A stretch of 64,000 nt of DNA from Antedon mediterranea (Eukaryota > Echinodermata > Crinoidea > Comatulida > Antedonidae). Below the pieces are notes generated by a model. It was not told where the DNA came from. It saw nothing but the letters and a program-made list of their open reading frames with translations, and ran no database searches. Both the position numbers and the translations under genes were made by a program. Shown one piece after another: positions 7,264 to 58,100 of the stretch (its first letter is position 1; each line of letters begins with the position of its first letter). Where the stretch lies: the NCBI RefSeq assembly GCF_964355755.1, contig NC_092671.1, positions 2,646,501 through 2,710,500 of the forward strand, given 5' to 3'.

Positions 7264-7303
7264 GTTATAGCAGGGAAGAGTATTAACTCTTCCCTGGTTA
7301 TAG
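7264..7303. mobile_element. Ultra-short hairpin insertion with 7-bp direct repeats (copy 1)
   Basis: A perfect hairpin (arms CAGGGAAGAGT, loop ATTA, 7271-7296) is flanked on both sides by GTTATAG. The 26-bp core starts CAGGG. Similar units lie at 45850-45888 and 57011-57049. Confidence 0.75.
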
Positions 7304-7620
7304 ATAGGTGAGGTTCAATAAACAATTGAAATCAATGGTTTATGATTATTTGATCATATTTATTGAACAATTAATTAAATCAATATTGTTTAAATTAAAA
7401 TCAGTGAATTTCCAGGCAGTTTTATAGTTATGAACAATTAATTACATTCTTAAGATCAGAAAAGGTATAATATGTTTATAAAAAGTAAAATATATTTAGA
7501 TATTAGATATTGGGTTAGAAACTTTGATAAAGATTATGTACGAATTTAATCAAACATGATTATTTAACAAATCCTGAAATTAAACTATTTTTTTTAGATT
7601 GAGTCAAGGTAAAGTTTATC

Positions 7621-8496
7621 ATGGATAACTGTAGTACAGGAGATGAGATTAATTTCATTGATAAATCTATGTTCGATTACATAATAATTATCGTATACGT
7701 ACTTGCACCAGTATCATTTATTGGAAATCTTGTTGTTGTTGTTTCATTGTTGATAAACAGAAAGTTAAGAAAAATTCAAAACTTTTTTATTGGTTTACTG
7801 GCATTAATTGATACATTGTTGAGTATATTATTCATTCCATCTTATCTTAATTTGTTTTACGATTTCCATATATTGCTTACATATATAAATTTTATAGGTG
7901 ATGGACTTATTCTTTCATCTACTTTGACAATCACCGCCATAGCGGTTGATCGATCAATAGCTCTTGTGTGGGCGCCGCTTCGATACCACTCCATAGTTAC
8001 AACGAAACGTTACATAATTGTATCCCTTCTAATTGTTTTAATACCAGCTTCAACAATCATAATAATGAGAAACATTTTTGAGGAGAAAATATTCTTTGTC
8101 TTTGCTTTTACTGGAATCGTAACAATAATTTTCACAATCTTCCTTTATGCTAATATCTACAAGAAACTTCAGAAAAATCGTTCTGAATTACATACAAGTT
8201 TAAACGAAATAGAAGAATTCAAAAAGATATTTAAAGTTTTTATTATCATTATCGGGATTTTTGTGATAACATGGGCGCCAAATACAATCTTACTTTTAAT
8301 TGGTATGTTCTTTGAGTGTTCGTCTATTCCAGATATTTTCAAGACTTCTATTACAATTACTTTTAGTACTGTTTTTTTTAATTCATTAGCAAATCCCATC
8401 ATTTATTGGTTTCATTTAACAGAATTCAGAGACTCTTTGAAGAATTTAATTTGTAAAACAAATCAAATCTCATTAGTCAGTGGACTAAAGGTATGA
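7621..8496 (+). CDS. Intronless rhodopsin-class GPCR (receptor copy F), intact
   Basis: This 291-residue seven-helix receptor starts at ATG 7621 (MDNCSTG) and stops at TGA 8494-8496. Landmarks are N36 in TM1, D64 in TM2, DRS 110-112 followed by IALVWAPLRYH, TWAPN in TM6 (W218, P220) and NPIIY in TM7 (258-262). The Asn-Cys-Ser sequon is at residue 3. As in copy C, there is no TM3 or ECL2 cysteine and no TM5 proline; C4 in the N-terminus and C233 in ECL3 are kept. ICL3 carries a KLQKNRSELHTSLNEIEEFK stretch shared with the copy at 9491. It differs from copy C throughout, so the array has at least two subfamilies. Ligand and tissue cannot be read from sequence. The gene is intronless and at full family length. 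Confidence 0.93.
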   Translation: MDNCSTGDEINFIDKSMFDYIIIIVYVLAPVSFIGNLVVVVSLLINRKLRKIQNFFIGLLALIDTLLSILFIPSYLNLFYDFHILLTYINFIGDGLILSSTLTITAIAVDRSIALVWAPLRYHSIVTTKRYIIVSLLIVLIPASTIIIMRNIFEEKIFFVFAFTGIVTIIFTIFLYANIYKKLQKNRSELHTSLNEIEEFKKIFKVFIIIIGIFVITWAPNTILLLIGMFFECSSIPDIFKTSITITFSTVFFNSLANPIIYWFHLTEFRDSLKNLICKTNQISLVSGLKV

Positions 8497-9490
8497 ACAC
8501 CGGGCTAGTATAAATATTTTCCTATCTGTTTCCTCCAAATCGAAACCATTTATTAATTTTATATAAAATGATCACGATACCGGAAATTATTTTCTTAAAG
8601 TATATTTATTGTTGATGCTTCTAGTATAAAATCTTTTAATACACTGCCAATTGCCAACCTGTCAATTAAATCTAATAACAAGAATTTTAAACAAATCAAT
8701 ATGTTATTAATTTTAACAAATACTCGTTTAAGTGATCAGCTAATAATGACAGGAGATTACAGTATCTTCCGGTTTTTACAGTGTGAGGTTGTCTATCATT
8801 GGTTTGAGACTCACGTTTTTCTGAAAATTTGAATTAATATCGGTTTTCTTCAAGGAAAACTTGTAGTGGTTTTCTAAGTAGTTCCTAAAATTAAATGAAT
8901 ACCACAACTCTATTTGAAGAAAGATTTTTGATGCAATAAAGTTTTGCAAGATCCTACTTTTCTGGAAATTGAGACATGCCATAAAGATATTACAGGTTCC
9001 TTGGGGCAAAAAGATTTTTAAAATTTGAAGCGATATTTTTTTCACGGGCAAACTAGTTTCTTAAATGAAGTTAAGTTTTGTGAATTCCACAACTCTATTT
9101 CAATAAAGTCTTTTGATGCAAAAGTTCTGCAAGATCTGTGTTTCAGCTGGAACCTGGATTTAGTATTTCATAGTACAGTAGTTCTCTTCCAGTCAACAGT
9201 GCCTAATTGTACACAACCGGACTGAAGGTAGATTATAACTTCACTGTACATAGAGTTGACAAATTGTTTATTCATGGACATCAATTGTGTGACACTACTA
9301 GTCTTTAGGCCTATATTTTGGTTCTTCGAAAAAGTAAAATTGTGTCAAAAGAAGTAATCGTTTTCTGCAATTCAATCTTTTTAAAAACACACCAGTATGA
9401 GCACTATGAAAGAATGGGCTTTGAAAGAATATTATCTGATAATATATTATTTTGACACAATTCCTTGTATTTTGTAAATGGTAAATTATC

Positions 9491-11598
9491 ATGGATAACT
9501 GTACAGGAGACATATTTGACATGCTCGGGCGATCTAGTTTGGATTTTGTACTGAATACATTTTCTGTATTTGCACCACTGTCATTTATAGCCAATTTGTT
9601 AGTGGTCGTTTTATTGTTGACAAATAGAAAGTTAAGAAAAACTAAAAATATTTTTATTGGTTTATTGGCAGTAATTGATGCTTTGTTGAGTGTATTAGTT
9701 ATTCCCGGATTTCTTAACATATATAGAGATTTTCATATATTGTTTGAGTATTTAGCATTCATATGTGATGGATTTTTATTGTCATCTACTTTGACAATCA
9801 CAGCCATAGCGGTGGATCGATCAATAGCTCTTGTGTGGGCGCCGCTTCGATACCACAACATAGTCACAATGAAACGTTACATAATTGTATCCATTTTAAT
9901 TGTTATTATGCCATTTTTAATACTTTTAATATTGAAATATATTATTGATGGAAACGCATTTATTATCTTCTCTTCTATTGTAATTTTATCTATGATTACA
10001 ACTATTTTCATCTATGTTAATATTTATAAGCAGCTTCAGAAAAATCGGTCTGAACTACATACAAGTTTAAATGAAATAGAAGAATTCAAAAAGTTATTTA
10101 ACCGATTCACCACGATAAGCGCTTAAAGCGCTCAAAAGGTTAAAAGTCAAGGTCATTGTAAACAAATTTTCAACAAAAAAAAAGTAAATCGAATTTACAT
10201 GCGCAGTTTGCTGTGCATGAATCGTAACAACAAATTATACAAAATACTCACAACTTTTTTTTTAAAAATATGCTTCTAAATATATAAAAACAATTGTTGA
10301 AGTTAGTTTGAAAATAAAATTCGAAAATATAACCGTTTTTCGAAGCACGCTGTTCGAAACGCGACAGGCGCGTTGAATGAATCTAGGCCTAGACATACAA
10401 CGTAAAATCGTCTAAAATCCATCTTTATTTCTAATAATCACTATTTTGAAGCTTGTATACAATAAATGTATAATAAATAAAGATTATGTATCAGTTACAG
10501 TGTCTAAATCGTCATATTTCCATGTAAAAATGTGATTTTTCTACCGGAGAAAAGTCGTGAAGATGTCCTCACAAGGGCCGCGCCATATTGTTTACCTTTG
10601 ATTGTAATATGAACCCTGACATGTCAGATGCATTATGGGCATGAAATATTTGTTCAAACTCTGCGCAAAGGTCAGTTTATTGAAGCATAACTTTTGACAA
10701 ACATTTTGATACCAAACTTGTTTTAATTTCATAAGTTTTCGACGCATTTTCGTCAAATTTTCTGCAAGCTACACGTCTAAAATAGCGGACTAAGCTCCCG
10801 AGGGATGCCGGTGCGCGTGGGAATCGCGAATTCCAAGTCGCTTTCGGGATGTTTTTTTTAACATTCCCGGTGAACAAACAGCGGCGAGGACGCTCTCGGG
10901 GCGGCTCCCGATAGGCCTAGGCCCCATATGGTCATCGTCGGATGAGTCAGTCTACTAATTTCTTCATAATTTCGAAACCGGTCATTCATAATGGTCAAGT
11001 TTGGTCTTATTTTGAAGAGAAGAAATAGGTTCTGATGAAGAGATGAGTTTTATTATGAAATATTTATTAATTTTTGTGCATTTGGTAGTCAAAGATAAAT
11101 TACAAATTTTTAATAATTTTCCTAAAATATTTCTAAAATTTGCATAATCCATACTCCGCCAAAATAAGTTGTAACACAAATTTGAAAACATATTTGGAAA
11201 TAAAATGTCCTTTGCATTATTTTTGTTTTTTAATTTTTTTAATGTCTGTGTTTAGAAAAAAAGTTAGGGTTAATTATATGACATATGCTTTTTGGGTCCC
11301 AGGGGAGCAAAATAAACTTAGGGGTCAATGGGTTAAAGCTTTTAGTATTATTATCGGAATTTTTGTGGTAACATGGGCGCCAAATGCAATCTTACTTTTA
11401 ATTTTGTCATTCGTAAGTTGTTCATCTATACCAGATTTTATTAAGACCATTACTACGATTAGTTTTGCTACTATTATTTTTAATTCATTAGCAAATCCTA
11501 TCATTTATTGGTTTCATCTAACGGAATTCAGAAACTCGTTGAAGAATTTAATTAAAAAAGAAAATATTAATAAACTATTTACTGTAAGCAATAATTAA
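9491..11598 (+). pseudogene. Class A GPCR (receptor copy G) split by a TTAA-flanked element
   Basis: The first part (9491-10101) encodes MDNCTGD through TM1-TM5 and the ICL3 up to KKLF. The second part (11337-11598) encodes the end of ICL3, TM6 (VTWAPN), ECL3 with Cys (SCSSIPD), TM7 (NPIIYW) and the tail. Between them is a 1231-bp insertion with TTAA at both junctions. The two coding parts total 873 bp, exactly 291 codons with the stop, and no other stop or frameshift is seen. The insertion therefore appears to be the only lesion and should be recent. As it stands the reading frame ends inside the element at 10124-10126, after TM5. A spliced reading was tested and rejected (see rejected items). 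It is the sister of the copy at 7621. Confidence 0.9.
10102..11332. mobile_element. piggyBac-like non-autonomous element, 1231 bp
   Basis: Direct TTAA repeats flank it at 10098-10101 and 11333-11336. The left end reads CCGATTCACC and the right end, in reverse complement, CCCATTGACC: eight of ten positions match and both start CC. TTAA targets and CCY-type termini are hallmarks of piggyBac. The interior has no long reading frame (the longest are under 70 codons) and includes GCGCTTAAAGCGC palindromes near the left end, so movement would need transposase supplied in trans. It sits inside the ICL3 of receptor copy G. Confidence 0.85.
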
Positions 11599-18480: not shown

Positions 18481-18574
18481 TACGGTGTAGTACAATGGCT
18501 CGCTAGTTGATTAGCTGTACCGGTACAACAAACACATATCTGGACCTATTTGAATTGCCTTATTTAACAACATA

Positions 18575-21500
18575 ATGACTCTATTTAGTTGTTTGATGAC
18601 GTTACTCTGCACATTATTTCTGAGATCAATCATATTTCAACCAGGTTCATTTGATTGTCTGGTTCGTCAACTCAGCTATCATAACGAAAATGTTCACTAT
18701 AACATCCGTGTCGGTGAGTCATGTTCTCTTTTTTTGCATACATGTGCTAGCATTAATAACACCACAAGAAAACGATATATAAGTAGGCCTGTGAGATATT
18801 ACGCCAATCATTATTCGACTTTTAACCTATGTTTGTTGGTTAGTGGCGACATTCATCCTCACCCAGGCCCAGAGCTGATGCATAGGAACAAGAGCCAGCA
18901 TATTGGAAACGGTAATAGTACGAAGAATACATGTGAATCTTGCGCTAAAACGGCGAGAAGCAATCAAAAATGTCTGATTTGCTGTGAATGTCATCACATA
19001 TTTCATATCAAGTGCATACCTATGAGCAGCGATAGTTATGTGTTTTATCAAGATAATCCATGGGCGTGTAACATCTGCTCCCTACCACAACTATCGGACT
19101 CATTTTTTGACAACTCATTGAACAACAACAACAGTATATTGTCACTTGCATCCAGCAATACATCAACTGATTCTTCCATCTTTGAAACTAACCTTATTCA
19201 AGTTGCTTTATTTAACGCCAGAAGTGTGGTGAATAAGATCGAAGAATTCCATGCGCGTATCGCAATTGATGAATTGGATATCTTGATTGTCACAGAAACG
19301 TGGCTGGACTCCTCTATTGATAGTACGGAACTGTTTCCAGACTCATTCGTTGTGTACAGAAAAGACCGTTCAAGACACGGTGGTGGTGTTCTGTTAGCTT
19401 TGAAGAACGCATTTAAATCCTCTATTGTTGACTTTCCTACTAACATTGAGGTCAAAATTATTGAAATAACTGTAAATAACAATTTTAACGTTTTAATATG
19501 TGCTGTTTATAGGCCACCGAGTTCAAATGACGATTGGCTCAATCAATTCCACGATGTCGTTGATTTTATCCTTTCTATTTTACATAAGTACTGTGGTGTA
19601 ATTTTAACTGGTGATTTTAATTATGATTACGGTGTTGATAGTCCCTTAGTTTATAAGAAATTTAAAGAAATTATTGCTCCACTTGATACCATACAATTTG
19701 TTGATTTTTTTACTCGTGTATCTAACACCAAAAGTAGCATTATTGATCTGGTCTTGTGCAATAACCCTGACATTGTATGTAATTTCAGAAGTCATCCCGG
19801 TCTCAGTACAAGTGACCACCTTGGGGTTTATTTTAATATTAACGCTAGATGCAGTAAAGTTAAACCTGTAGATAGATATTATTATCAATATAGTAAATGT
19901 GACCATGACGATCTTTTTACAACGTTGGGGGCGGTTCCTTGGGGACTGTGCCTGGAACAATCAGACTGTGAGGAAATGTGGGAAAATTTTAAAGACCTCT
20001 TTCTCGCCACTATCAACGATTGTATCCCTAAAGTCAAAAGTAAAAAAAGAAACAGGCCAGCTTGGATAACTCAAGAAATGGTTACCATGGCTCGTAAAAA
20101 GAAACGAATGCTAAAAGAGGCTCATCGTCATCCTCATAACCTAAATAAGATGGACAAATATAGAAAGTTTAGTAATAAATTAAGAAACCTAACAAAAAAA
20201 GCTCATTTACAATATATTAGGAAATTAAGTGTCGCCTGTGTAAATGGTGACTCCAAACGTTTTTTTAGTTATGTTAAGACAAGGCGTAAGACTGGACAAG
20301 TCAAAAACTTTGTTTTTAATGGTATACCCTTGGTTTCCGATATCGATGCGGTAAATGCATTTTCCACATTCTTTGCGTCAAACTTTAACGAACCTAATCG
20401 TAATTTCAATGTTAACCATGAGATCTGTAATTGTGTTCACCCAGATATTGTTCCCCTTAATAACATTAATATTACTGAAAAAACTATTTTCGAGGCTCTA
20501 TTGTCATTGAAACCCAACAAATCCCCTGGACCAGACGGGATTACACCTAAAATGTTATCCATGTCAGCTCCAATTATTGCCCCAGTGTTGTGCAAAATGT
20601 TTAACAAGTTCTTAACGGATGGCTTTGTACCAAAAGATTGGAAACTCGCAAATGTCACTCCTATTTTTAAGTCAGGTAATCGTAACGATGTTAATAATTA
20701 TCGACCCATATCGCTATGTTCTATTATAGGTAAGGTTTTTGAACGTATTATAGCAGATAACATTCTTTTTCATCTTCAATTTTTTGGATTTATAAGTCCC
20801 ACGCAACACGGGTTTTATCCAGGTAGATCGTGTGTTACACAGGCCTCAGCGTTATATCATGATTGGTCACAAACAATGGATGTTAGACAACCTCCTGTAA
20901 TTGATGCAATATTCCTTGATTGGGAGAAGGCCTTTGACCGTGTTCCCCATGATTTAGTAATCAAGAAACTGCACAACATGGGAGTATGTGGATCTCTCCT
21001 AAAGTGTCTTCACTCCTTTCTCAGTGACAGATTCCAACGTGTTGTTCTTAACAAGGAGCATTCTGATTGGGATAGAGTGGGCTCGGGTGTTCCTCAGGGA
21101 TCAGTGTTAGGCCCGCTTCTATTTAATCTCTTTGTTTATGACCTACCTCTAAATACCTCTTCTGTTATGAAGCAGTATGCAGATGATACTGTAATTTATA
21201 AACCTGTATTCAGTCGTCATGATGCACTTACCTTACAACAGGATCTTTGTAAAATTTCCAAATGGTGTGAGGATAATAAAATGAAATTAAATGCAAAGAA
21301 GTGTAAAGTCATGCACATAACTAGGAAACGTAATTATATCCCTCATTTTATTTATACAATCGAATCCAATCCCCTTGAAGCTGTTAATTCACATAAATAT
21401 CTTGGTATTAACTTCTCACGTGATTTAACATGGTCTGCTCACGTTAATGATGTATCGATGAAATCAATGAGAATGCTTGGGTTTATCAAACGGTTTGTAG

Positions 21501-21982
21501 GTTTCAATGACACCGAAATTTTACTACGACTTTTTAATGCACTATGTCGACCTGTTATTGAATATGGTGCTCCTGTGTGGGATCCACATCAAAAACAACA
21601 TAATATAGCTATTAACAAGTCATTAAGACGGGTTACTAAATTGTGTGTTGAAGGCGATTTCACTGACAGGCTTAAGATACTAAATTTACCAGATATGGTT
21701 CAAAGAATGAAATTTCATAGTATAATTTTTGTAGTTAAGTGTTTGCATAATTTAATTGATTTTGATATATTTGAATACCTTACAATTAATTCTCGGTATC
21801 CTGAGTCGCTCACCTTTAAACACATGTATGCTAGAACTAATGCATTTAAATACTCCCTGTTTGTTAATTTTCCTCGAATATGGGAATGTATCCCGCATGA
21901 AGTTCGTAACAAAGTCCTGTTTAACTTTGGGGGGTTTAGAAGGGATTTGAAAAAATGTATTACTGATATCGAATTCATCTAG
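18575..21982 (+). CDS. LINE polyprotein: 2A-like leader, PHD-like finger, APE endonuclease, reverse transcriptase
   Basis: One uninterrupted frame of 1135 residues encodes a non-LTR retrotransposon protein that would nick target DNA and copy element RNA into it. Residues 1-90 are hydrophobic at the start and end in SGDIHPHPGP (90-99), a degenerate 2A-like motif. Residues 120-168 form a Cys/His finger of PHD type (CESC, CLIC, CHHIFH, CNIC). Residues about 205-430 are an APE-type endonuclease (FNARSV, TETWL, RRDR-like KDRSRHGGG, GDFNYD near 346, SDHLG near 413). Residues about 640-930 are a reverse transcriptase (NKSPGPDG, NYRPISL, GVPQGSVLGP, YADDT at 868). The C-terminus has the Trp/Leu-rich end typical of CR1/L2-type LINEs. 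The start is the first ATG after upstream stops. The clade (CR1/L2-like) is inferred. The intact frame implies a young copy. Confidence 0.93.
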   Translation: MTLFSCLMTLLCTLFLRSIIFQPGSFDCLVRQLSYHNENVHYNIRVGESCSLFLHTCASINNTTRKRYISRPVRYYANHYSTFNLCLLVSGDIHPHPGPELMHRNKSQHIGNGNSTKNTCESCAKTARSNQKCLICCECHHIFHIKCIPMSSDSYVFYQDNPWACNICSLPQLSDSFFDNSLNNNNSILSLASSNTSTDSSIFETNLIQVALFNARSVVNKIEEFHARIAIDELDILIVTETWLDSSIDSTELFPDSFVVYRKDRSRHGGGVLLALKNAFKSSIVDFPTNIEVKIIEITVNNNFNVLICAVYRPPSSNDDWLNQFHDVVDFILSILHKYCGVILTGDFNYDYGVDSPLVYKKFKEIIAPLDTIQFVDFFTRVSNTKSSIIDLVLCNNPDIVCNFRSHPGLSTSDHLGVYFNINARCSKVKPVDRYYYQYSKCDHDDLFTTLGAVPWGLCLEQSDCEEMWENFKDLFLATINDCIPKVKSKKRNRPAWITQEMVTMARKKKRMLKEAHRHPHNLNKMDKYRKFSNKLRNLTKKAHLQYIRKLSVACVNGDSKRFFSYVKTRRKTGQVKNFVFNGIPLVSDIDAVNAFSTFFASNFNEPNRNFNVNHEICNCVHPDIVPLNNINITEKTIFEALLSLKPNKSPGPDGITPKMLSMSAPIIAPVLCKMFNKFLTDGFVPKDWKLANVTPIFKSGNRNDVNNYRPISLCSIIGKVFERIIADNILFHLQFFGFISPTQHGFYPGRSCVTQASALYHDWSQTMDVRQPPVIDAIFLDWEKAFDRVPHDLVIKKLHNMGVCGSLLKCLHSFLSDRFQRVVLNKEHSDWDRVGSGVPQGSVLGPLLFNLFVYDLPLNTSSVMKQYADDTVIYKPVFSRHDALTLQQDLCKISKWCEDNKMKLNAKKCKVMHITRKRNYIPHFIYTIESNPLEAVNSHKYLGINFSRDLTWSAHVNDVSMKSMRMLGFIKRFVGFNDTEILLRLFNALCRPVIEYGAPVWDPHQKQHNIAINKSLRRVTKLCVEGDFTDRLKILNLPDMVQRMKFHSIIFVVKCLHNLIDFDIFEYLTINSRYPESLTFKHMYARTNAFKYSLFVNFPRIWECIPHEVRNKVLFNFGGFRRDLKKCITDIEFI

Positions 21983-22202: not shown

Positions 22203-23796
22203 TGTTTATACTATCAAATGTATACTAACAAACTGTAAGTGACAAAAAATGTGATGTGCCCATATGGATATTTGGACATTTTAGTGTACAGTAGACAGAG
22301 CTGAAGGTTCACGATTTGATAATGGTTAATGCTTAAGTGCAGTACTTCTATTATTAATGTGTCGACCGCTACGTATACCCCACTCTCTGTCAGGGAGGCC
22401 CAAGCCTGTTGCAGGAGAATCAGAAAATAATGTGTATATTTATATAAGAACTTAGTTTTTTTACTTTTGGATTTCTTTTATTAATCAGCTTTATTGAATT
22501 TTCCATGCCACTACACTCCTTTAAAATATAGTCATTTATTTAAGATCTAAAAGATGATAAAATAGTATTTAATTAAAAGACACTTTATTTATGTAACTTC
22601 AAGTATAAACAAATCAACAAACATGTTATTATTATTTTTATTTGTTTTATACATGTGGGAGTTAAGTAAATAGAAATTGGAACCAAAAGTATACAGATAG
22701 ATCTGTACTCGCCCATAAGAGTAAACAAAAAATACATTCCTTAAAAGCATGCATAAAGAAAATAGAAATGCAGCAAGGAAAGTGTTTATGTCGGGGAAGA
22801 ATACCTGGTAATTTCAATAAACAAAAATATTTATTTGGCCAATTTTTATTATTATTATTATTTTATTTATATAGCGCTTTTCCAAATTAGTGTAAAATGA
22901 TCAAAGCGCTTTACATCAGCAGACCCAACAATGAGTTACTTCTTAGGAAATAGATGTGTTTTGAGGGCTTTTTTAAATTTTTTAAAACCGTGGTTTTTTT
23001 CTGAAAATGTCTCCATCATGTACAATGGAAAGAATGGTAGAATGTCAGCAGAATGTCTAGGATTTTAAAATAAAAATTATACAAACCAGAAATGGTGTTT
23101 GTAGTCTATGAGTGTATTTCTACCTTGTTGATTTAGAAACGAGGGCAATGGCTTATGACGGTTTATCCAGGTAAATTATAGACATGATATAGGCACGGTA
23201 TAGACTGTGAAATTAAGTATTGAAATTCATTTAATGAATCTAATCTTATCCTTTGGATTTTAATTTATTATTGGGGCTCATCTTGTTGGATCCACCTACA
23301 ACACTTACTTTTGCTGTTATAAAGTATCAAACAGATCAAGTGGCTTAATTAAAATTACTATCACTGTCTACTGCAATAACATAAAGGTATATAGAAATAA
23401 ATATCCAATTATCATCAAATATAAATACTTCTTTTGATACGGGAACAAAGTAAGTTCCTATTTGTGAGTAGACGAGTGTGAAATACCACTAACTTCTTCT
23501 CAAAGGCATTCGATTGGAAATTATTGACAGAATGCTCGCCAATTAGTAAGAGTAACAGGTTTGTGATGAAGCGTAAAAGTAAGAATTTGTTAAATCATGT
23601 GTTTAATTTAATGACAAGAAGCCACTTCTTGAGATTCAATCAATCAATCATTTTTAACGCTGAATTTGAGACATCAAGTCTAATTGTAATGGGTTTGTTA
23701 AGGTCAATGGCGTGGTAAGAAAAAAGGTAAATCACAAAAATTTGAACTGCTCTCTCAAAACAACTGTTCAAAATAAGTAGACTACAAGACTTCCCT
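22203..23796. other. Repeat fragments, no gene
   Basis: At 22208-22290 there is a partial copy of the MITE seen at 27243-27365 and 46469-46612 (GTGACAAAAAATGTGATG.GCCCATATGGA). At 22846-22935, on the minus strand, is a SINE-type tail: AAAGCGCTTTGATCATTTTA and GGAAAAGCGCTATATAAAT followed by (AAT)n. At 23160-23180 is a GGTTTATCCAGGTAA piece of the MITE at 40553-40778. No coding region is seen. Confidence 0.6.
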
Positions 23797-23985: not shown

Positions 23986-23994
23986 TAATCAGCT

Positions 23995-24326: not shown

Positions 24327-27300
24327 TTTATATAACATCTAGACGTTTTTTTTTCGTACACAAAAATGTTTCAAAAAGTACTATTTAACGATCGTTGAAT
24401 AGTGCGTACTATTGCACGCCATGTGACCCACATTCGTCCAATCAAATGACAGGAATTTATTTAGGTGTTATATAAAAACTATTATAATAGTGTACAAAGT
24501 TCTGTGAATGATGTTTCTATCTATCTTAAAATACATTTTACAAACCTTGTATCAGATTTTCCACAGATCCTGCTTAAATAAAGTCTATCTCCATGTTATT
24601 TAAAATGTTTTTTTTACCTACCATATTTTCAATATTTTGCCACAATATTCTAAACAACAGCAATTCTAGATTTTAATCTATAAACAATCATGACAGCTTC
24701 AATTTTTATAACTACAGGATAACAATAATAATAATTACACATGACAATTTTCCAGATAAAATTGATAAATTATATAGAACGATTTCTAATAATGAAAAGA
24801 AATTTAAAAAAAATGTACTATACCTTCAATCAACAATACTTAATTAAACGTGACCTACTTATAAAAAACAATATGAAGCTACTAACATTTACGGAGGAGC
24901 CAGCAGGACTGATGCAGCGCAGGATCTATACTCTGTCTCATCGAGTCCAGTAACTAATAACGGTATACATTTCAAAACATTTGTTTTGGCTCCGAGCCAG
25001 ACAGCGCCATGGGATTCCAATACACAGAATAAGTGGCATTTAACTCTATTGTACCCATTGATGCTCAATAGGTAGATTATGTTAGCCTAGTTAATCATAT
25101 AATTAGACAAGCTTTATTATTATGAACCATATGCTGTTTTAATTATTAATAAATAGAACGTTTTAATATTGCTATAAATAAGTATTATTAATGATGAGTT
25201 ATAATACTGTAGTTTTTTAACACGCATGAGTACATCCTTGCCATTTGATTGGTTCAACTACAAATGGAAAAGTGATATTTAATGGAGATAGTTAATGGTA
25301 CTATTGCATGTTTTGTAAACATTTTTACTCTTGAAGCTATTGACTATTGCACATTCGATAAACAACTTTTGAGTGCGCCTGTTCTATGTATACCTGTTTA
25401 AAATGAATAATATACAGTAAATATTTCAAAAGATGTATAAAAAAAAAGGCAAATTACTTTTAAAATGTAGAAAATCTTGAAAAAAAAAAGAACAAAAGAG
25501 TCAACTAGACACCACTGAACGAAAAAACGTGGCCAGGGTATATGCTTCATTTAATTAATTTATTCATCCAAAGAGAAAAGAAAAAATATCATTAAAAACA
25601 TAGAAATACTGTATATCAAAATATGAAAAGGTGTATCAACAAAAAGGTAAAAGCTTGTACATAGATACTTATATGCTTGATTCTCATTTGCACCCAATGC
25701 AAGGAAGTAGATCAAAGTTAACATGATGGATAATAATTGAGCATTCTTGCACCCAACATGTGGAAACAGAGCTTTAGTGTGTCAAATAATTAGTTGTAAA
25801 AAAATAGAGGGCAGCAAACTGGTTTTAGCAGTAATCTACATTACAAATTGTCATGCATCAATGATTATTAGTTAATAACCCTAATAAACTATACAAGATT
25901 AAAGTGCATTAGCACAAATTATTCAGTCATTTATAAGTTTAATTTATAATCACAAATTGTGAATTAAAATTGTTAAAAAACTTTTTAGTTAATGTGTGTT
26001 AAATCGTGCTGAACTAATTTGTTTTCCCGATGGTAATTTTTAGTAATGATTTTATGTTTCAGTTGTAAAAATGAATTTATTGGAAAATATAAATTTAGTA
26101 AAAATAAGCTCTAGTGATGAGATAGCAGTTTGGTATTCACCTCAGTTAATCTTTCACTCATGAAATTCTCTTCATTCTACTTATAAACAATCAACAGGGG
26201 ACAATACATGGTCACACTTTTCATTTGACAGGTAAAATAAAATTATGAACTATTTTTTTATATCTAAATATTTTTGACACACTGATAAAATTATATGTAG
26301 CGCTGCCGTTTGAAAAAAAAAAAGCAGATTGCAAAAAGATTGAAGTGCCCATTACATTAGTGATGTTATTTATTTATTTTATGATGAGTGCAAAATATTG
26401 CAAAATTGCGAAATCATTGGTGAGCCAATAAAAAGCTACTCTAAAAAATATAAATAACCAGGTACATATAGCATATAATCTAAATTGCGTGTACATCTTG
26501 ATAATGCACTCTCACATCTCACTGAAGAATGACTATCTTCGACATGTCATTATTGATGATAATATCATATTGCAAAACAGCTCTAAAATCGTAACACGCT
26601 TGATTACAGTGCTATTATACTTTGAAGCAGCTCAAACAAAAACAACAAATATTAAATAAATGGCATAATCTATAATCTTATGTTTATACTACTGTACAAG
26701 TGCGTGTATGGTTTTAGAATAAGAGTTTTTTAAGTGAATGATGAAAATGATCTTCAATTACGAACTATCTGTTACAATTTTCAACTCAACTAAATGGGAT
26801 AAAATCTTATGTTAGTGTGATTTTTCTTTGTATTATTTGTTTTGTACCTGGAATTTTTTTTTTCGGAACTAAAGTGGTCAATCAATCAATTGTATCAATG
26901 AGAAGCTTTCTATAATATATAAATTCTTCAGAAACGTTGAGACAATCTCAACCATACTTTTGATCCATTTTGAAACACACAGTGTACTATACAGAACCAC
27001 AATTAAACAAAACTAAGCAAATTTTTATCATAGAGGCATTATAGTGAATATAATATCTCTATGCTTTTGTAATTATGAGTAAGTAATAAGATATCCTTTA
27101 TTAATTATAAATTACAAGGGTGACATCTTCCGGCGACAATATCTATAAAAACAGAAAAATACACACCTATTATGATTCATCTTTTAAAATTCTTAATTTC
27201 TACAAACATTTTTGACATTTTGTAAATTTTCATTTTAAGCCTTGTCTACACCATCAAACTTTATGTGACAAAAAATGTGATATGCCCATATATGGACATG

Positions 27301-31599: not shown

Positions 31600-32398
31600 G
31601 TTATGCGCGATTTGAACGATTTGCGCAATTTGAAATTGCGCAAAAAAAATCCTTGCGCAATTTGAATTGAAACATGTGTTTCAAATTGCGCAAGCAACGT
31701 ATTAAATTGCGCAAGTAATCTGCAAATTGCGCAAGGTTTTTCGACAGATTGTGAAATCATGTACACCCATATTTTTATAGTAATTTCTAAGAATGATTCA
31801 AATTTAAAGATAAATATCGCATTTCCTTATTTTAGTAGTGCAAATATTGTTATAAGTTAGCATACCGTCGAAGAACCGACGAAGGAAAACGAAGCGGTGG
31901 TGTTCCACCAGGCGGGCGCGGCGCGGGCGGCCGGCTATACTACTCTAGCCTAGCTAGGGTCTGGACTACTGATACTGACTAGGTTACATGGCCTAGCTTA
32001 AACTAATATTAAAAACTTAAAAAGTGAGTATTAAACATTATCTTCATTGAAATGGTCTTATTTATATAATAAAATACTAAATTTTAAACTCCTCTGCCTA
32101 GGCCTAGCCTATAGCCATGTATGGGAAAATTTACAGTTCGTTTTCAAATTGCGCAAAGGTGTCATATTGCGCAAGAACTATCTTGCGCAATTTACAAATT
32201 GTGCAGCGCAATTTAAAATTGCGCAAAGATTTTCTTGCGCAATTTGAAATTGCGCAAGTTGATTGCGCAATTTGAAATTGCGCAAAAAAATCCTTGCGCA
32301 ATTTGAAATTGCGCAAATAATTCTTGCGCAATTTAAAATTGCGCAAGGATTTTTTTGCGCAATTTCAAATTGCGCAAATCGTTCAAATCGCGCATAAC
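31600..32398. repeat. Palindromic element built from TTGCGCAA octamers
   Basis: Both ends read GTTATGCGCGATTTGAACGA inward, and about 65 bp of each arm match with only one indel and one or two changes. The arms consist of TTGCGCAA separated by AATTT-type spacers, many pairs forming perfect palindromes centred on TTTGAAA. I count 20 exact TTGCGCAA octamers: 6 on the left (31620-31735) and 14 on the right (32146-32380). The core (31880-31940) is unusually GC-rich for this window (GCGGGCGCGGCGCGGGCGG). TTGCGCAA is the core of the optimal C/EBP-family bZIP site; that is established for vertebrates. Whether it binds anything here is unknown. No target duplication is evident. Confidence 0.9.
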
Positions 32399-32635
32399 AT
32401 ATTCACCGAAATGTGTGTCAGCCTTCTTGTTTTGATTTTGGAGCTGGATTTTAAACTATATAGCGCCACCATACGGCAGTCTTATTATAAATTTGCTTTC
32501 CAAAATCTCATCAGCTTTTTCCCCTGAAAAAAAACATTTTTAGTCCTAATTTCCGAATCCGAATTCATTGACCGTTCGTTATTAGCACGACTCTCTGAGA
32601 AGATCATATTAATTATTTAGTACAATAATGTAACA
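32399..32635 (-). mobile_element. Probable 3' LTR remnant of the Gypsy element
   Basis: On the minus strand a purine-rich tract (AAGAAGAGGGA, about 32636-32646) is followed directly by TGTTACATTATTG at 32635, the usual arrangement of polypurine tract and LTR start. The pol gene lies upstream in the same orientation. The far end of the LTR is not defined, because it runs into the palindromic element at 32398 and no second LTR is present for comparison. Confidence 0.5.
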
Positions 32636-35385: not shown

Positions 35386-35390
35386 TTAGA

Positions 35391-42015: not shown

Positions 42016-44360
42016 TTTGTTGGTTCACGATCGAGTCTCTCTTTCTTTTTCTGCAGTGCGCCCTCTCTATAAATCTATCTATATCATCAAAGATCTTACA
42101 TACTATACTAATTATCGTCGTGCTATCTTATAAGCTCTAATATCTTTGATATTATGATATACCCAAATATTTATGTTCCCAACCCTCCCCCATTTTTTAT
42201 TTTTTTGATAAGATTTCTATAACAAAAACCAATGTAAAAAATGGGATGGTTAATGAGACTGAAAAAAAAAATTGTTTAGGGCCTAGCCTCTATTAATTAT
42301 TTATACCACAAGTGACAATCATACCAAAATAATATTATTACAATACAGTACTACTAGAATTAAATCAGGCAAATCATAATCTAATCATAATCATATCATA
42401 AAAACAACAATAAAAATGATTTTAGTTTAATAGTACTGCATTACCAAAGCAGAATTCAAATACTATAGGATGGCATACTAGTATAATTTTAAGTGAAAGA
42501 AGAGGGTAGAAGGAGTCCTGATAGATAATTAATGTTTCATGAAAGTCCTTAATGCATCTTTATTTTTTATAGACATAAAATGCATAAAAAAATTCAATCG
42601 ATCACTCTTTTTATAACAGTAAACAAACAGAGCGGCATGGCCTTTGATCAAAGATCACGGTTTGTCTTTTTTGATCTTATGAGATAAAAATGTGGTGGTA
42701 AGGTGCTACCGTTGAGGGTGCACTTCAGACAGCAACACACAACAAACCAAGTGGCTTCAGTTTTTGCATGATTAGCAATGAGAAGTGTGAAATCTGTTGA
42801 CGTACGAATGAAATCCTCTAATAATTCTTGATTCATTGGGAACTTGTTGATATTTTAACCGCCCGTAAGTATTTATATGCTGTTTGATTATTTTCACCGC
42901 TAAAATTAAATATTTGATGTTTTGTAAATCGTTGTGTGGGGTTTGATTTTGACAACCGTTGGTCTGTAAAAAATAAACGGTAAACTGTCACACATATCAT
43001 GGACTTTACTCCATGCACATATTCAGACCACACAAGATTGTCAGTACACTGACTGAATCATAAAAAGATGGGACTATTTAAATTTTGGACAGAAGTGGTG
43101 GCCTACCTACAGTAGTAGTTAGTGTATTGTAGACCTAGAGCACAGAGATTTAAAAATTAGAGATACTGTAGATCCCACATATTATCAACTAAATGTTCGG
43201 TAACTTTATGTTTTTCTCAGCCTTTAAGTACAGTATACATACAGTACGTACAGTGAGTAGTAGTAGACTAATAATAATATAATACGTGCTGTACATGTCT
43301 CTTCATGGTCTTTTCATATCATAGTCATACTCTAATTTCCATGTAATCATATTGTGTTCTTTCATACATGTATGTACTCGTTCACTAAGTCTACCTCTTC
43401 TTCCACCATCCTTGCTTGTCCGATAGGTCATCTCAAAAGATGTGGCGATCGTTCCTAATGTCGCTGCTTTGAAACTCTAACTTTTAAAATCCTAGATCAA
43501 TTCCTATCTTTTCCATTTGTTTTAAATAATTTTGCATTTATTTCGTTAAAATTTTCATTTATTTGGCATTGCTTGTGGTTTTTTAAGTGCATAGAACCAG
43601 TTTACTGCCTGTATTATTTGATCACATGATCTTTTTATTTGCCTTTTTTAATATCATTTGTCCTTTTCTGTGTCTGCACTTGACAGACTTATGTACACAA
43701 TGAGTTAAGCACCTGAAGAATAAACATATCTACAGGCCTATGTTAATTTCCATTAAAATTGCGATTTTTGTTATTGTAAATGTACCGATTATGTATGCTT
43801 ATTGATTATTGATTCATGGTTTATTGCAATTACTAATTGCATAGATAGACGCCATCAGAGCCACTGTTGTCTCGGTGTTTAAGAGTTTGCAAACAGACTA
43901 CTGTCTGGACCTATGTGCTATGAGTAAATACATAGATAATAGTGCATGAATAAATTACCATTACCAGAATCTGGATTTTAAATGATGTTTTGAAAATAAC
44001 CGATGCAATAATGTCACTTAACCGGATATTGCTGTGCAACATTGAGCAGAAATAATGGTAGTTATTATTATGACCGCCATTGATCAAGTACTGTAGCATC
44101 TTGACCGTTCGACCGTCTGAGTGCATCACATTTTGGGTATATTAACATTTTAGTCGATGACCACTCACTGATGTTAGGATCATATATTGTATACTTCACA
44201 GAATGCAGTTGATCATTACTGTATAATGTATTGTAGGCTACATTAAAAAAATAAACTGTATAAATATTTTAAATTAAACCTAAAATATGTAGCAGAAACA
44301 GGCCCAATTGAGACATTTAGATCCCAAAAAGCAATTGTGTTAACTACACAGCATCCAGAA
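42016..44360. other. Non-coding stretch upstream of NDUFB8
   Basis: The first 60 bp right of the NDUFB8 ATG must hold its 5' UTR and promoter. Two minus-strand frames overlap at 42648-42836 and 42833-43033 (the second ends AVKISTSSQ; the first reads ELLEDFIRTSTDFTLLIANH). They could be one decayed gene or chance; no family is recognised. The rest has no feature I can support. Confidence 0.4.
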
Positions 44361-44374
44361 GAAACCTCTACACA

Positions 44375-44594: not shown

Positions 44595-44682
44595 AAACTC
44601 ATTGCCTTGCCTCTTAACTTTACTAAAGGTAAGAATTACTAAAGGTAAGAACTAGAGAGAATAAACCTATATTTTGCAAGCA

Positions 44683-44732
44683 CAGGGAGGTACTGTATAC
44701 TGTACAGGTACAGAACATACTGTACCTCCCTG
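44683..44732. repeat. Hairpin with CAGGGAGGTAC arms
   Basis: Arms CAGGGAGGTAC and GTACCTCCCTG enclose a GTAC-rich loop. The arms resemble the ultra-short hairpins at 7271, 45857 and 57018, but this one is 50 bp and lacks flanking direct repeats. Confidence 0.7.
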
Positions 44733-45849: not shown

Positions 45850-45888
45850 CTTACAGCAGGGAGTTGTTATTAGACTCCCTGCTTACAG
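45850..45888. mobile_element. Ultra-short hairpin insertion with 7-bp direct repeats (copy 2)
   Basis: Arms CAGGGAGT and ACTCCCTG (45857-45881, 25 bp) are flanked on both sides by CTTACAG. Same plan as 7264-7303 and 57011-57049. Confidence 0.75.
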
Positions 45889-46468: not shown

Positions 46469-46612
46469 TACAAAAGTACACTATCAAACTTAATGTGACA
46501 AAAAATATGTGATATGCCCATATATGGACATGATGATGTCATATCACTACCATATTTGGGCATATCACTACCATATTTGGGCACACTATTTTTGTCAAAC
46601 TAGTTTGATACA
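46469..46612. mobile_element. MITE copy, GTGATATGCCCATATATGGA family (fullest)
   Basis: It starts CTACAAAAGTACACTATCAAA and ends TTTTTGTCAAACTAGTTTGA, so its ends are roughly inverse. The middle has GTGATATGCCCATATATGGA and two CACTACCATATTTGGGCA repeats. Related copies are at 27243-27365 and 22208-22290. An 83-codon frame across it (46509-46760) is repeat-derived. Confidence 0.75.
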
Positions 46613-46858
46613 GGTTGCAACTTGCCCAACTGTTCTAGTGGCTAAAGCCTTGTTCACACTGAACTTGAAAAATGGTAAATTTAACCACGCTACTAGACAT
46701 TTAGTAACTAATGTCATGGGAAGATTTGATCACTTGGATATTTTCACGCAGTTACAGTAGTTTTACTGTAATTTTACCAAAATTTAACCGTGATGGACTC
46801 GCATATGTTAACATGATTCGTACGGATTGGACTTTTGAGCCGGGTAGTTAGTTTTTAC

Positions 46859-46903
46859 CATGGAGGTACCTCCATGGTTTTACATTGTAAAACCATGGAG
46901 GTT
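46859..46903. repeat. Overlapping perfect palindromes, CCATGGAGGT
   Basis: CCATGGAGGTACCTCCATGG (46859-46878) is a perfect palindrome. Its right half is also the left arm of a second hairpin, ACCTCCATGGTTTTAC with its exact inverse, ending near 46903. The same half-site can therefore pair either way, as in a cruciform switch; no function is known. Confidence 0.85.
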
Positions 46904-48683: not shown

Positions 48684-49181
48684 GTCTATTTTATAGAAAA
48701 ATTACAAATCCTTCTTAAATGATAAATTAAAATACTTTCTTAGAATTTCATAAAAACAAAATAGATTTACAGAATTAATTGCAAACAATCAATGCTCTCA
48801 TGACAAATGGTATGATTTACTCACTAACTACTGTTTAGCCTTTAGCTTAATTAATTCTGGCACTTATTTTACATCATAGATATCTTTGAAGTCCAACATT
48901 CAAATTTATGTTGTGCCGTAAATGAATGTGTAAAGACTGTACTACTGTAACAGTAATGTATTTCATATTCCATTTACTTGAATGTTTCGATTAATGTACT
49001 GAAAACTAACTGTACTGTTGCAGTAAAAGAGTTTTATGCTACTATGCATTGCTAATTGTATTTTCCTTCTTTTTCAGCTACTGTACCCCCACTGTTTTTT
49101 GATTGATCACTGAAGAAAATGTGACTGAATGAATCGATCAAAACAATCTCATAATTTTCGTTGTAAAAATCTCAATTTGAG

Positions 49182-52100: not shown

Positions 52101-55100
52101 TCATGTAGACACTTTTTTGTAATGTTTTTGTTTTTGAGTTCGTGTTGTGTCCGTTGGATATTGTGCTCCGCCAACAGAGCAAACAGAATTTCTATGTTAT
52201 TTCTTTAAAAAAATGATAATAAATGATACTTGACTTGACTTGATTCATTTCACTGGTAATTGGCCCCTTAATGTGTTTACGAGTGTAGATTACAATCCAT
52301 TATTTTAAAATTCTAATAATGTATTATAGATACGAAAACATTTTAATATTTTAATAAAGGGTATTTTCAATAGGAAGTAATTTTTTGATATGTTGTATTT
52401 GGTTTATTAATTGTTATACTGTTGGCTACTTCCTTTACTGTACATGCCCATGTCTTGTCCGGAATATTTCCTTGTAATTGTATTCTGTCTACATGACCAA
52501 AACATAGTTTCTTATGTTCGAGATCGCAATATCCTTGTAGAATTATCTTTTCCTTTTTATTTCCTTGTCTTTTTTGCACCAGTAATTTACAGTATATCAG
52601 GTAGAAGCATAATTCATCAATACAAAATGGAGGTTACTTTTAATATGAAGAAAGCATTTGAAATATAACTACACATTTACAGTGCACATCCATGCATAGT
52701 ATTATCACGTCCATTGCCCATCCGATGCTAATTTATATCTGAAATATTTATGCTATTAGGATCACGAATGATATTCTTAATGTACTGTAAATGTATGTCA
52801 CAAAGATTTGAATTATGAATTGAATATCGAGTTCTAAGAATTATTAGCTGTGTAAGAAAAATTAGATGCATAAGATTTCATAATCATAGTGAGATTTCCA
52901 GTGCCGGGAAAACACTATTAATTCGTTTGAAATTATTAATATTGCAAAATAAAATAATGCAGTGCGGTATTAGTGGTCTTGTAGTATGTTACCAGGCTTT
53001 TAATTTGAAAAGTATGGGTACAAATCCTACCTATGTATAGTACCATAAACATTTTTGTTATTAAGATAATTTGACAGGTTACAATACAGTTACATCACAA
53101 ATTGGTAACATTAAAATAGATTTTTGAACAATTTATTTTTTTTATTTATGAAGATTTTTGTTTGTTTTTTTTGTCATTTCATAATATATTTCTCATAAAA
53201 ATTAATCATAACTTTATTTTGAAAAGATTCATAGTCATTATTATCATTAAGTAAATCATTATTATCATTTATTATTTAGCTTGCTTTCATTTTATTTTTC
53301 GCATCACCTTTCAGATATACATATCTCCGCAAGTAATTTCATGGAGTCTTTATCTGATGGTGTCTTACCGTGTAAATTAGCTCAACTACTACAAAACAAA
53401 GCGGAAGAATGCAAAAAACAAGGATTAATCGCACAAGTAAGAACACCAGTGTATAATTATGTAATAATTACTGTATTGATTCAAATAAAAGCCCACCCTG
53501 GGATAAATTTTTACATTTGAGTAATTGTCTTAAAAATTATTTTTGTTAGAATAAGCGGACTCATGGTGGTCCTCTTGTAAAAACTCATCCTTATATAATT
53601 TTGTGTTTTTTTTTTATAATTTAAGGACTTGCCAAGGTCAAGGGTGAGATACCGAGCGAATGCAAGAAGAGGGTCATTTTTCGCAAGGGACAACACAGCT
53701 AGCTTTCTTCAATGGTGCCGTGAAATTGGTTTAGAAGATACCTGTTTATTTGAAACTGAGGGCTTAGGTAAGTACTGTGTACAGTTTACTATGTTATAAA
53801 AATAAATTATTAGAGGTGTGTTGGAGGATTAGTCCATTATTATAGGGGGATGTTCAAGGAATCTTTTTACACAATTCAGTAGCTTTCTCCCTTGGAAGAT
53901 TTATCCAGGTAAGCGGCACTCATCATATATGTTTTTTTTACTACAGAAATGTCATGATGCGTAGTAGTACAGTACATAATTGGTTTCAATTGATAGAAGA
54001 TTACATACAATAGCTATTTTAATGCCAATACTATTATTTTGAATCTCAGTTCTCAGAAAATCTGGTTTAAAAAAATTATTTTATTCAAAGAAAGTTTTAA
54101 ATTACTCTTCAATAGAACATGACACTCTATATTTGCATGATAAGTTTGTTTTTCTTCAGAAGATGGTTGATGCATTTTGAGATTTCCTAGCTCTCTTTAT
54201 TGAGATAATGTGGTATTTTACCGCAAACAGTATTTTTAGTTGGAGAACAAAAATCACTTACACTAGTACATTAATGCATCTTTGTTTTACTGTAAGCGCA
54301 CTTTCTCCATTTTTTCTACAAAATCACTATAATATCGATAATGGGAAAGTGATCTTTCCTATGAGACGAGACCTGATGTAACTATCAGATCTAACTTCTT
54401 ATACTTTACCAATTTTTCTTCAAAATCAACACTTTAATATCAGTAATGGGAAACTGAGCTGGCCTTTGAGAGTAGATCTGAATTTATACATAACACATAG
54501 CTATTGAAGCCAATTAACTGTAGGCACATGTCTGTATGTTATATTCTATTTTGAATTCAATACAAAGAGAGGCTTGTTTTATATTCATGTATTATGCGTA
54601 GCCCTAAGGTCACATCATTAACATTGATAGTATCAAGCAATCACAATGATTTGCTACAGTATGTGCACAGAATCGAGTCTATTCTCATTTTATTTAGGAT
54701 GGGTCTTACTCAATGGATGAATTATTCGTCAATTAAATGATTCAATATGTTGCGATATCATCTGAAAATGCATTGAAAAAAGAGATTTGTGTCAGCAGAG
54801 TCCAGGATAAAACAAATAAAACAAAACACCGAACTGGAAACTGGATTATAAATGACGAAACAAACTAAATATGTAAAACTAAAGTAATAATAAAGGGGAC
54901 AGCCACCTTATACACATCTCAATAATTTGGTGAAAAATGTCTTTTCTTCAAAATATAAACGGGTTGCAAAAACAAACGACTGATTGTTTGATTTGTTGAT
55001 CCCTTTTAAAAGGAAGTAAATTATAACAAAATGATTTGAATGATGATATCACTTATTTTAATAATATTCATAAACAAACAGATGTGAGTAGGGAGATTAG

Positions 55101-58100
55101 ACTAGCTACTTAACATCCCTGTTACCCTCACCTATCATCTTCCACTTTGTCTTTTACCACAACATCAACATTTATACATTTTCTCCTCATAACATCATCA
55201 TGTTAAGCTTGACGGATTTTCCTTTCACAAGAGAATCTTTTAATAATTTGTAACTAATCCTAAAGGATAGATCATGCAATTACAGATTGATTATTTATTA
55301 CCACTTAGTTAAAAAAACCTAAAACCTGTTCTACGTCAAGAACACATCTCTGTTATCTCGTTGAAATCATGCTAGACTTAACTACGGATAAAAGTATTAG
55401 TGTTTTAGAGAATTTATTTCAACAAATTAAGTCTTTATCCGTTTCTGTGTTTTTTTTCTCCTCATAACTATGGGATCAATGAACTGAATGTTATGGCTTG
55501 ATGTGATATTTATAGTACTTTTTGATACAGTTGTAAATAATGTTTTTATAATATACTTTTATAGTAGCATTATTGTACATAATAGTTACTACTGTACTTT
55601 CGTTATTCACTAATTTATGTATCATCTATTCAGTTAAGCTTGGTTCCTACTAAAGAACGCAACATAAGTAATTTGCTTGTGATTGGTCAACTTGTTTGCG
55701 TTGCATCTGTGTCCTTGCTTTGCGTCTCTAGTGGGAACCAAACTTAAAAAGGCCCTCTTTTGTGACACCCCTATTCATAAGGGGAGAACCTACAGGAGAT
55801 TAAGAAGATGTTTCTCCGTCAAATGAATGAGGGAAATAAATGTCTTAGATTTATCAAAGGGACACTTTTTTTTGTGTCCCCTTTCAGTACATGATGGAGA
55901 GAATAGTAACTTTCACACATTCGTACCAAGTTAACAATTTGGTACAATATGTTACAGTTTGTGATGTTTTGTGTGAATTGGATATACATTGAGAAATATT
56001 ATGTAATTGAGTGCATCCAGAAGAATTTATGACAAATTAAAATGCAATGAATAGGAGAGTTGTCTCATGGTATTTAGATAATTTTAATTCATATTTAATA
56101 TTTCCACCCTAATTTGGTAAATCAGTTTTCGGATGATACTAATCAGTCATGTGTGAAACTATTGTTTACTATAATGAGGTGAATTAGGCTGTCAGGCATC
56201 TGGCTATTTGTTGAATGTCCTCCAAAACAATTAATTCTTTTAATAAAAAATGGTAATGTCCACATATTAATATAAATCAGGCAGCACCTTGTTCTTGAAT
56301 GATTATTCACTTTATGAGCACAATTTGTCTGCAAATTAGAGTTGTGTCAATCAAGTTTATGGACTTTAAGTCCAAAGATGATGGTCATTGTCCATTTACT
56401 GATTGAAAATGCCACTGGCTAGGTGTATTACTGTGTTTGGTAATGTCCATTTGATTATTGACCAAACGAACTGCAGAAAAATAATCCTATATTTATGATA
56501 ATTTTATTACGGTCTTTATTTATTTGTCAGCAAAAAATGACATACTTTATAAAATGATTGTTAGAAATAGCCATGCAATGTTGACGATGTTGCCTTTATA
56601 ATATTAGAGAGCTCCTGATTTCTCACGAGCAGAACATGTAATTGATGCATTACATCATGTGTACAGGTCATCGTCCAGCTCTGCTATGCTAGGCGGTTAA
56701 GGCAGGGGTGCCATAAAATCGGCAAAGGTTCAAGGCTCTCCTCGATCTTTGTTTTGTTGGATAAGGATCTTAAGCTGGAGGTCCAGTTTCCACATCTGAC
56801 TTACAGTATGTGCAGTTTAAGAAATTAATGAATCTTGAGTAAAGGGTTAACCTCTGTGTACTGGTCTACACTGTGACTTTTTTGAGTATGTACTGTACAG
56901 GGTCTAATCCGAATTTCCATTGAGGGCAAATAATGTAATATGTGATAACAGAATTCAAGTTCATAACCTGAACCTAGAATCCATTGGGTCCGGAGACAAA
57001 TATTATAATACCTCTACCAGGGAGTTGTAAAATAACTCCCTGCCTCTACTGTATATGATGTTATAGACCTTTAGATGGCAAATCTATTGGTGATGTTGGT
57101 GGTGATAGCTAGGTAGCAATATAGCATGATAAAGAAGCAACATGACAATAATTTTTATGCGCAGAACATTTGTAAAGATACAAATATTATGAAGATTTAA
57201 AATAATTGTATGACATGACAGAAATCTAACTTCTAATACCATCTGTTGTCTTTATTCTAAAAAGTAATTAATTATGAGTCATGTCTTTGAAAATTCACAA
57301 TAATTTGTCATTAATCTATAAAATGAAATGTTCCAATACGTCATTAATAAAAGTACTTTTGTGCTCACTGTATACAGAAATCATCAAGTAACCTCGTTGT
57401 TACACATAATAGTACTGTATATGCAAACTCAAAAAAATATATCAGCAATCATATTTATTCTAAATTAAGAACATTGAATATCGTTCTGTCTACTGAATAT
57501 GAATAATAATTTCACTTTTCTAAATTAATCATTGTCCTACAGTATCGGATATAGGAGGTGGTAACCCCCTGATACAGGGGCTTGTGAACCAGCTCACTGG
57601 GGAAACTCCTACTTTTCTTGAATGATGGGTTCTTTAAACTGCACACAGGCAAACTATGTACACTGGACCTATGGTTTATAGTCCCTATTCGAGAAGAATT
57701 GTTCCACAACAAGAACTAGGAGCGAGTTGGCTTCGAACCTATTCAAATATTGTAGGTTCTTTAGGTACGGCGCCCTTGCTTAAACCACTCAGCCATTTCA
57801 CAGCAGAAAAACTATCTTTACCCAGTTTGTTTGATATTTGAAAATTACATTAATCGGTTGAAGCATTAATAAATTATTAAATTTTATTTTTACATATTTG
57901 TTTGTTTTAATAAATAAATAGACTGTTTCCTTTATTGATACTAGACAAGCTGTTTGTGTTACTATGGCAATACCAAGGTGTGTTTAAAGAATCCGAAAAT
58001 TATGCTAGAAATAGATCGCTGATTGTTAGAAGGCTTTATCCGTTATTGTCTGTTTACGTCTGTAGCTTGTTCCTTTCAGAACGGAAAGCGAGGGAGAATA

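Follow-up and report, generated by a model that had tools for sequence, protein, structure and literature searches.

The window analysed here, a stretch of 64,000 nucleotides (nt) from the crinoid Antedon mediterranea (G000:C2:2646501-2710500; window G+C 0.29-0.38; assembly of 354 Mb in 18 contigs), contains short hairpins bordered on both sides by copies of a 7-bp sequence, and we consider it highly probable (about 0.92) that these hairpins are end-joined excision footprints, or scars, of cut-and-paste transposons of the P superfamily. The anatomy of an excision scar was recognised because the junctions differ between sites, the arms are truncated, the retained ends stop at about 18 nt in three (A, B and D) of the four families A to D, and a short overlap or a filler lies where the two ends meet. 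The original prediction had tentatively taken three of these hairpins for extremely small transposed elements; the observation was correct and its cause misassigned, in that the 7-bp duplications and the transposon ends were upheld, whereas the features just listed speak against the hairpins being elements themselves.

Hairpins of the window and their target duplications

The three hairpins first noticed (7271-7296, 45857-45881 and 57018-57042, with the 7-mers GTTATAG, CTTACAG and CCTCTAC) were all re-found exactly, and a longer hairpin (44683-44732) was present and, as originally described, had no target duplication. Two window sites of the same class, at 42998-43015 and 46859-46876, had been absent from the original prediction. 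The sites, none of which carries a strand, are as follows.

7264..7303, family C-like scar; 26-nt hairpin at 7271-7296, with GTTATAG at 7264-7270 and 7297-7303
45850..45888, family A scar; hairpin 45857-45881 bracketed by copies of CTTACAG; intact end known
57011..57049, family B scar; hairpin 57018-57042 bracketed by copies of CCTCTAC
42991..43022, probable scar with family D-like ends; CATGGACTTTACTCCATG at 42998-43015 bracketed by exact copies of CACATAT
46852..46883, family D scar; CATGGAGGTACCTCCATG at 46859-46876, flanked by TTTTTAC and GTTTTAC (6/7); intact end known
44683..44732, 50-nt hairpin; related CAGGGAGGTAC ends and a repetitive, filler-like middle, without target duplication

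The end of the first scar has relatives in the genome-wide pattern search for family C, the family A hairpin consists of 17-18 nt of a left end joined to 7-8 nt of a right end, and the family assignment of 42991..43022 is made on the outer 6 nt only. Our guess is that the 50-nt hairpin is an old or rearranged scar. A scan of the window for hairpins of 14-80 nt that start with CAGGG or CATGG and have arms of at least 6 nt returned eight, four of them with an exact flanking 7-bp repeat and one with a 6/7 repeat, as compared with a mean of 0.81 hairpins (maximum 3) in 100 first-order Markov controls, in which a flanking repeat at up to one mismatch occurred 0 times. These controls and the permutation of flanks described below reject chance as the source of the matching 7-mers, which had been judged unlikely from the beginning.

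Three mutually exclusive end patterns, each with 0 matches in its reversed control, were searched for in the whole genome: 1) CAGGGARNT...AACTCCCTG, with 530 forward and 535 reverse matches, 2) CAGGGAAGAG...CTTCCCTG, with 460 and 478, and 3) CATGGAGGTATA...CTCCATG, with 516 and 567. Because a palindromic site matches on both strands, the distinct matches number at least the larger strand figure, 1,580 when summed over the three patterns, a figure that includes copies in amplified repeats and a few composite or tandem matches and is therefore not a count of independent scars. Flanks were read at 134 sites, comprising a de-duplicated set of 84 together with 12 of family B, 19 of family C and 19 of family D. 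The 84 are what remained of 103 after removal of 19 copies with common flanks, a filter confined to that set; one more repeat copy, L077, stays among them as a site without a 7-bp repeat. Outside the 134 are L032 and L034 (for which the script rule found no right end), L047-L056 (ten loci fetched for one end), the array L057 and a further group of loci.

An exact 7-bp flanking repeat was present at 96 of the 134 sites, a 6-bp or an 8-bp repeat at two sites each, and a repeat of 4, 5, 9 or 10 bp at none; with up to one mismatch in 7, the number rose to 105. When the right flanks of the 134 sites were permuted 2,000 times, exact repeats averaged 1.0 and never exceeded 6. By set, the exact repeat was found in 63/84 de-duplicated, 8/12 family B, 9/19 family C and 16/19 family D sites, and the 96 exact duplications have a palindromic consensus near GTTWAAC. 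At these 134 sites, the comparison of flanking 7-mers with shuffled controls that had been proposed for the whole genome showed a clear excess, and the repeats have the properties of target site duplications left by a DNA transposon, as originally supposed; the intact family A copies described below have them likewise.

A longer ancestral palindrome was rejected as the general cause of the flanks, since at up to three mismatches in 12 it fits one site of the 134 (L002). At L002 (G000:C1:584626-584715) the flanks are inverted at 12/12 nt, and a 427-bp family C element, L187 (G000:C1:3582060-3582600), which is not among the 134, also has flanks of this palindromic, inverted type; the two are a minority of sites with a different history.

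Uninterrupted counterparts of a scar site were located within the window itself. The scar L124 (29 nt, duplication ATCAAAC) lies inside an interspersed repeat, another point of which carries the scar L140 with an imperfect duplication, and three stretches of the window match the joined flanks of L124 without any insert, two of them with a single ATCAAAC.

27232..27291, no strand, empty site, paralogue of the L124/L140 repeat; one ATCAAAC
46477..46523, no strand, second empty paralogue of the L124 site; one ATCAAAC
22221..22265, no strand, third empty paralogue of the L124 site, more diverged

These three paralogues indicate that the scar was added to a sequence that had existed before without interruption.

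Retained ends and junctions

The depth to which element ends are retained was determined on single strings, and these figures refer to sites among the matches listed for each search. For family A, 69 places listed, minus 20 of a repeat cluster and one local copy, gave 48 strings, to which five longer ones obtained through 17-mer matches were added, making 53 sites and 106 arms. Sixteen of these arms are 18 nt long, five 19 nt and one 23 nt, all others being no longer than 19 nt. Of 26 arms, 21 have the element's A at base 18, whereas only 5 of 21 have its T at base 19, and so a depth of 18 nt fits better than one of 17 nt, which was dropped. Family D (60 sites from 64 places listed, two composites and two extra copies having been dropped) gave 13 arms of 18 nt, five of 19 nt, one of 20 nt and none longer. 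In both families the intact ends continue past this limit of about 18 nt. Family B was assessed on 86 strand-level rows, after an array had been counted once and a composite removed; at least 17 nt were kept in 67 and 18 nt in 53, and the base after position 18 has no consensus (G16/T16/A12/C9), an assessment made without an intact family B end.

Patterns with a gap of up to 30 miss derivatives longer than about 50 nt, a limit that does not apply to the family A 17-mer matches on contig C1, all 24 of which were read. Three intact elements account for six of them; of the 18 arms left, 17 break off after 17-19 nt and one after 23 nt, and one of these arms, at L034, has no second end in the stretch read. 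For family C the reference is the single element L187, whose flanks are inverted and not direct, and the long arms measure 20 nt (11 arms), 22 nt (5), 23 nt (13) and 24 nt (1). Some family C 42-mers are identical and form pairs with a spacing of about 2.9 kb, which suggests that some of these strings are probably copies of one event. The limit of about 18 nt is seen in families A, B and D and is not established for family C.

The junctions of the 53 family A sites comprise an overlap of 1-2 nt in 26, a blunt joint in 11, a filler of 1-3 nt in 4 and a filler of at least 4 nt in 12, the filler count being inflated by a few strings with a B-like second arm that were scored against the A end only. 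Among the 60 family D sites, the corresponding numbers are 33 (overlap of 1-4 nt), 11, 8 and 8. The junctions vary between sites, and the arms are truncated copies of the ends of a long element.

Source elements and their transposases

Longer elements with CAGGGAGTT ends, for which a search had been suggested, do exist in the form of intact family A copies. A genome search with the 17-nt family A arm gave 93 forward and 76 reverse matches, the intact end runs on as ...ATGGAGTAACA, and its 28-nt form occurs 19 times, as eight facing pairs and three single ends. Reading of six of the eight pairs revealed four elements of 2,533-2,554 bp, each with an exact 7-bp duplication, one of 4,014 bp with a 6/7 duplication and one of 11.6 kb with the exact duplication ATATAAG, so that the duplication is exact in five of the six copies and matches at 6/7 in the sixth.

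P-type elements proved to be the relevant group among those the original prediction had named, P-type transposase domains being tied to both family A and family D. In a P-type transposase the RNase H domain is divided by a GTP-binding insertion. The 4,014-bp family A copy encodes a TNP-like RNase H C-terminal domain (E=1.7e-8), and an open frame in a 2.5-kb copy, L023, contains a zf-AD-like zinc domain (21.6 bits, cut-off 28) that is related to the N-terminus of a P-type protein of 617 amino acids (aa) at L127 (E=7.9e-13). The L127 protein, whose gene adjoins a family D end, has RNaseH_N and P-element HTH domains above cut-off, RNaseH_C was found in the same locus, and in a comparison with PDB the protein matched the Drosophila P transposase (6p5a, E=3.1e-9). 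The gene sits in a repeat with 99.5% identity between L127 and L128. A further P element of 5.5 kb with unrelated ends, L067, has a 794-aa transposase frame, with a full RNaseH_N/GBD set and RNaseH_C below cut-off, and an exact 7-bp duplication in both copies examined. An N-terminal THAP domain is typical of P/THAP9. No THAP match was obtained at E up to 0.1 in the three transposases scanned (L067, L127 and L131), and L127 and L131 have a zf-AD-like domain slightly under the curated cut-off. By catalytic domain and by target duplication, which is of 7-8 bp in the P superfamily, the source elements of families A and D are members of that superfamily, an assignment that does not extend to P elements proper.

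An intact family B element was not found among the ten of 72 matches of the 19-nt B end that were read inward, matches past 2.2 Mb of contig C4 lying outside these ten. Those resolvable by eye resemble scars whose second end has been lost or altered, and two of the ten have common flanks, as copies of one repeat.

It was also noticed that L067, L127/L128, L129, L130, L131 and L025 each have a second gene on the opposite strand that converges on the transposase gene, with frames of 337-350 aa in L067, L127 and L131 and fragments in the other loci. The second proteins of L127, L131, L067 and a family A relic are mutually related without a convincing Pfam match; that of L067 had no Pfam match and no convincing match to a solved structure.

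Some scars are found inside repeats. A 24-nt family A hairpin occupies the same place in many copies of an interspersed repeat (L006, L008, L070 and others, a 19-site cluster), which indicates that the scar was carried along as the repeat multiplied. The tandem array L057 (G000:C3:297600-298700) has periods of 45 bp and 61 bp, and because its 45-bp unit is exactly a 38-nt family B-type scar plus a 7-bp target copy, ATTGGCT, a scar seems to have seeded this minisatellite. Another minisatellite, L188 (G000:C1:23594150-23595900), has a period of mainly 37 bp; every unit contains a family C end, and a single complete hairpin lies at the edge of the array. The 37-bp unit was considered as a scar plus target copy and proved otherwise. 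L030 (G000:C1:2816700-2816860) has two adjacent scars, one of family A and one of family D, with a GTCAAAC separating them and another on each outer side; the arrangement looks like a renewed hit on one target copy by a different family. Elsewhere in the window, a nested palindrome cluster of TTGCGCAA and TTTGAAAT units lies at 31600-32400, and frames that by eye resemble a cluster of related G-protein-coupled receptors (2755-11598), a non-long terminal repeat (non-LTR) retrotransposon (18554-21982) and an LTR retrotransposon (32999-35385) were seen.

Origin of the scars and comparison with known systems

According to the proposed mechanism, insertion of an element duplicates 7 bp of the target, as seen in intact copies and in scars. 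On excision, the transposase would cut one strand at the edge of the element and the opposite strand about 18 nt deep in the terminal inverted repeat, an offset suggested by the depth limit of the retained ends together with the known mechanism of P transposase. The donor site would be left with both target copies and, protruding from them, tails made of about 18 nt from either end of the element. The tails would then be nibbled and joined with a short overlap or filler, presumably by an end-joining repair pathway, and since one tail repeats the other in inverted orientation, a hairpin of roughly 20-45 bp would result. The scars themselves are presumably immobile. By their common anatomy, families B and C may be read in the same way, without a linked transposase.

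Several points weigh against this origin. The data are the sequence of one individual of one species, in which excision was not observed; no transposase was linked to families B and C and no intact element to family B; and L127 and L128, aligned copies of family D, each show a single CATGGAGGTATA end in the stretch read. The retained depth is 18-19 nt in families A, B and D as against 17 in Drosophila P, and one family A arm (L035) reaches 23 nt, with a repeated end fragment. Family C is less regular, having exact duplications in 9/19 sites and arms of 20-24 nt in 30 of 112 (56 places, among the matches listed).

Deleted P elements are known to arise when gap repair is interrupted, and the hairpins might accordingly be internal-deletion derivatives left by such repair after excision instead of by direct joining of tails. 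The 23-nt arm of L035 with its repeated end fragment, fillers of at least 4 nt at 12/53 family A and 8/60 family D sites, and the family C arms of 20-24 nt would all agree with this. However, resynthesis should often pass 19 nt, which was seen in one of 42 long arms of family A and one of 21 of family D, and we regard this alternative as very improbable.

Somewhat less probable still is that the hairpins of 20-45 bp are miniature mobile elements moved by a transposase in trans and making 7-bp duplications. Besides the exact duplications around them, identical hairpins do recur, for example a 24-nt family A palindrome and a 42-nt family C palindrome, the recurrent family C strings having been only partly read with flanks. 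However, the flank-read 24-nt form sits in copies of one amplified repeat with common flanks, other interiors vary, with truncation differing on each side and with filler, and in families A, B and D the arms break off at about 18 nt. In the Drosophila element the transposase binding sites are described as lying inside the element (PMC7776569), a position that, if applicable here, would fall outside a 25-bp hairpin. A miniature inverted-repeat transposable element (MITE), as a homogeneous short sequence at unrelated sites, was likewise rejected, as the interiors and truncations vary. An origin as hAT footprints or remnants is scarcely credible: hAT elements also begin with CAGGG, as these ends do, but the duplications are of 7 bp and not 8 (96 vs 2 of 134), hAT excision is not expected to leave long retained tails, and the related family D end adjoins a P-type transposase; it was rejected on duplication length, hAT genes themselves not having been searched for.

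Returning to P-superfamily excision, we put forward tentatively, at a little under even odds, that the scars derive from a distinct clade of the superfamily, characterised by a zf-AD-like N-terminus and by a second, convergent gene of about 340 aa opposite the transposase gene. The offset of its cut would be unlike the 17 nt of Drosophila and would vary from family to family (about 18-19 nt for A, B and D; for C perhaps 20-23), and its excision in the germline of this animal would be mostly end-joined, with scars far outnumbering intact copies. If this is true, the geometry of cleavage has changed in the course of the superfamily's evolution and is legible from a genome sequence alone. If the hairpins are P scars, one genome records transposase cut sites and the joining of breaks across several related families, and two questions become answerable from sequence, namely whether the 17-nt offset is universal in the superfamily and which end-joining signatures are dominant. 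Short hairpins with flanking duplications should then be screened as scars before they are named miniature elements.

A review describes the P transposase as cutting at the 3′ end of the element and, in the opposite strand, at a point 17 bp into the inverted repeat of 31 bp, and P insertion as yielding 8-bp duplications (PMC7776569). Because of the cut 17 bp inside the end, the Drosophila donor site is left with tails of 17 nt next to the target copy, and this is how repair products that were sequenced have been written (PMC2895639). The same junction classes are reported there after P excision, insertions having templates almost always traceable in flanking sequence. The Antedon scars resemble those footprints in having both target copies, a fixed maximum of each end and an overlap or filler, and differ in having 7-bp target copies and tails of about 18 nt instead of 8 bp and 17 nt; moreover, the Drosophila footprints in that report are laboratory products of one insertion, whereas the present scars are natural and belong to several families. 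Zebrafish Pdre2/THAP9 is likewise a P-type transposase system outside insects, for which excision has been demonstrated, but as described it has an 8-bp duplication and 13-bp terminal repeats, unlike the present elements, and excision by zfTHAP9 in Drosophila S2 cells gave larger flanking deletions (PMC10983969). Galileo, also of the P superfamily, shares 7-bp duplications with a palindromic consensus, GTANTAC as compared with near GTTWAAC here, and its reported ends differ from the present ones (PMC4168063). A genome-wide catalogue of P-type footprints was not found in the open-access literature, subscription journals not having been searched. The scars are of a known kind, and what is new, within the literature searched, is their scale, the involvement of several families and an apparently different cut offset.

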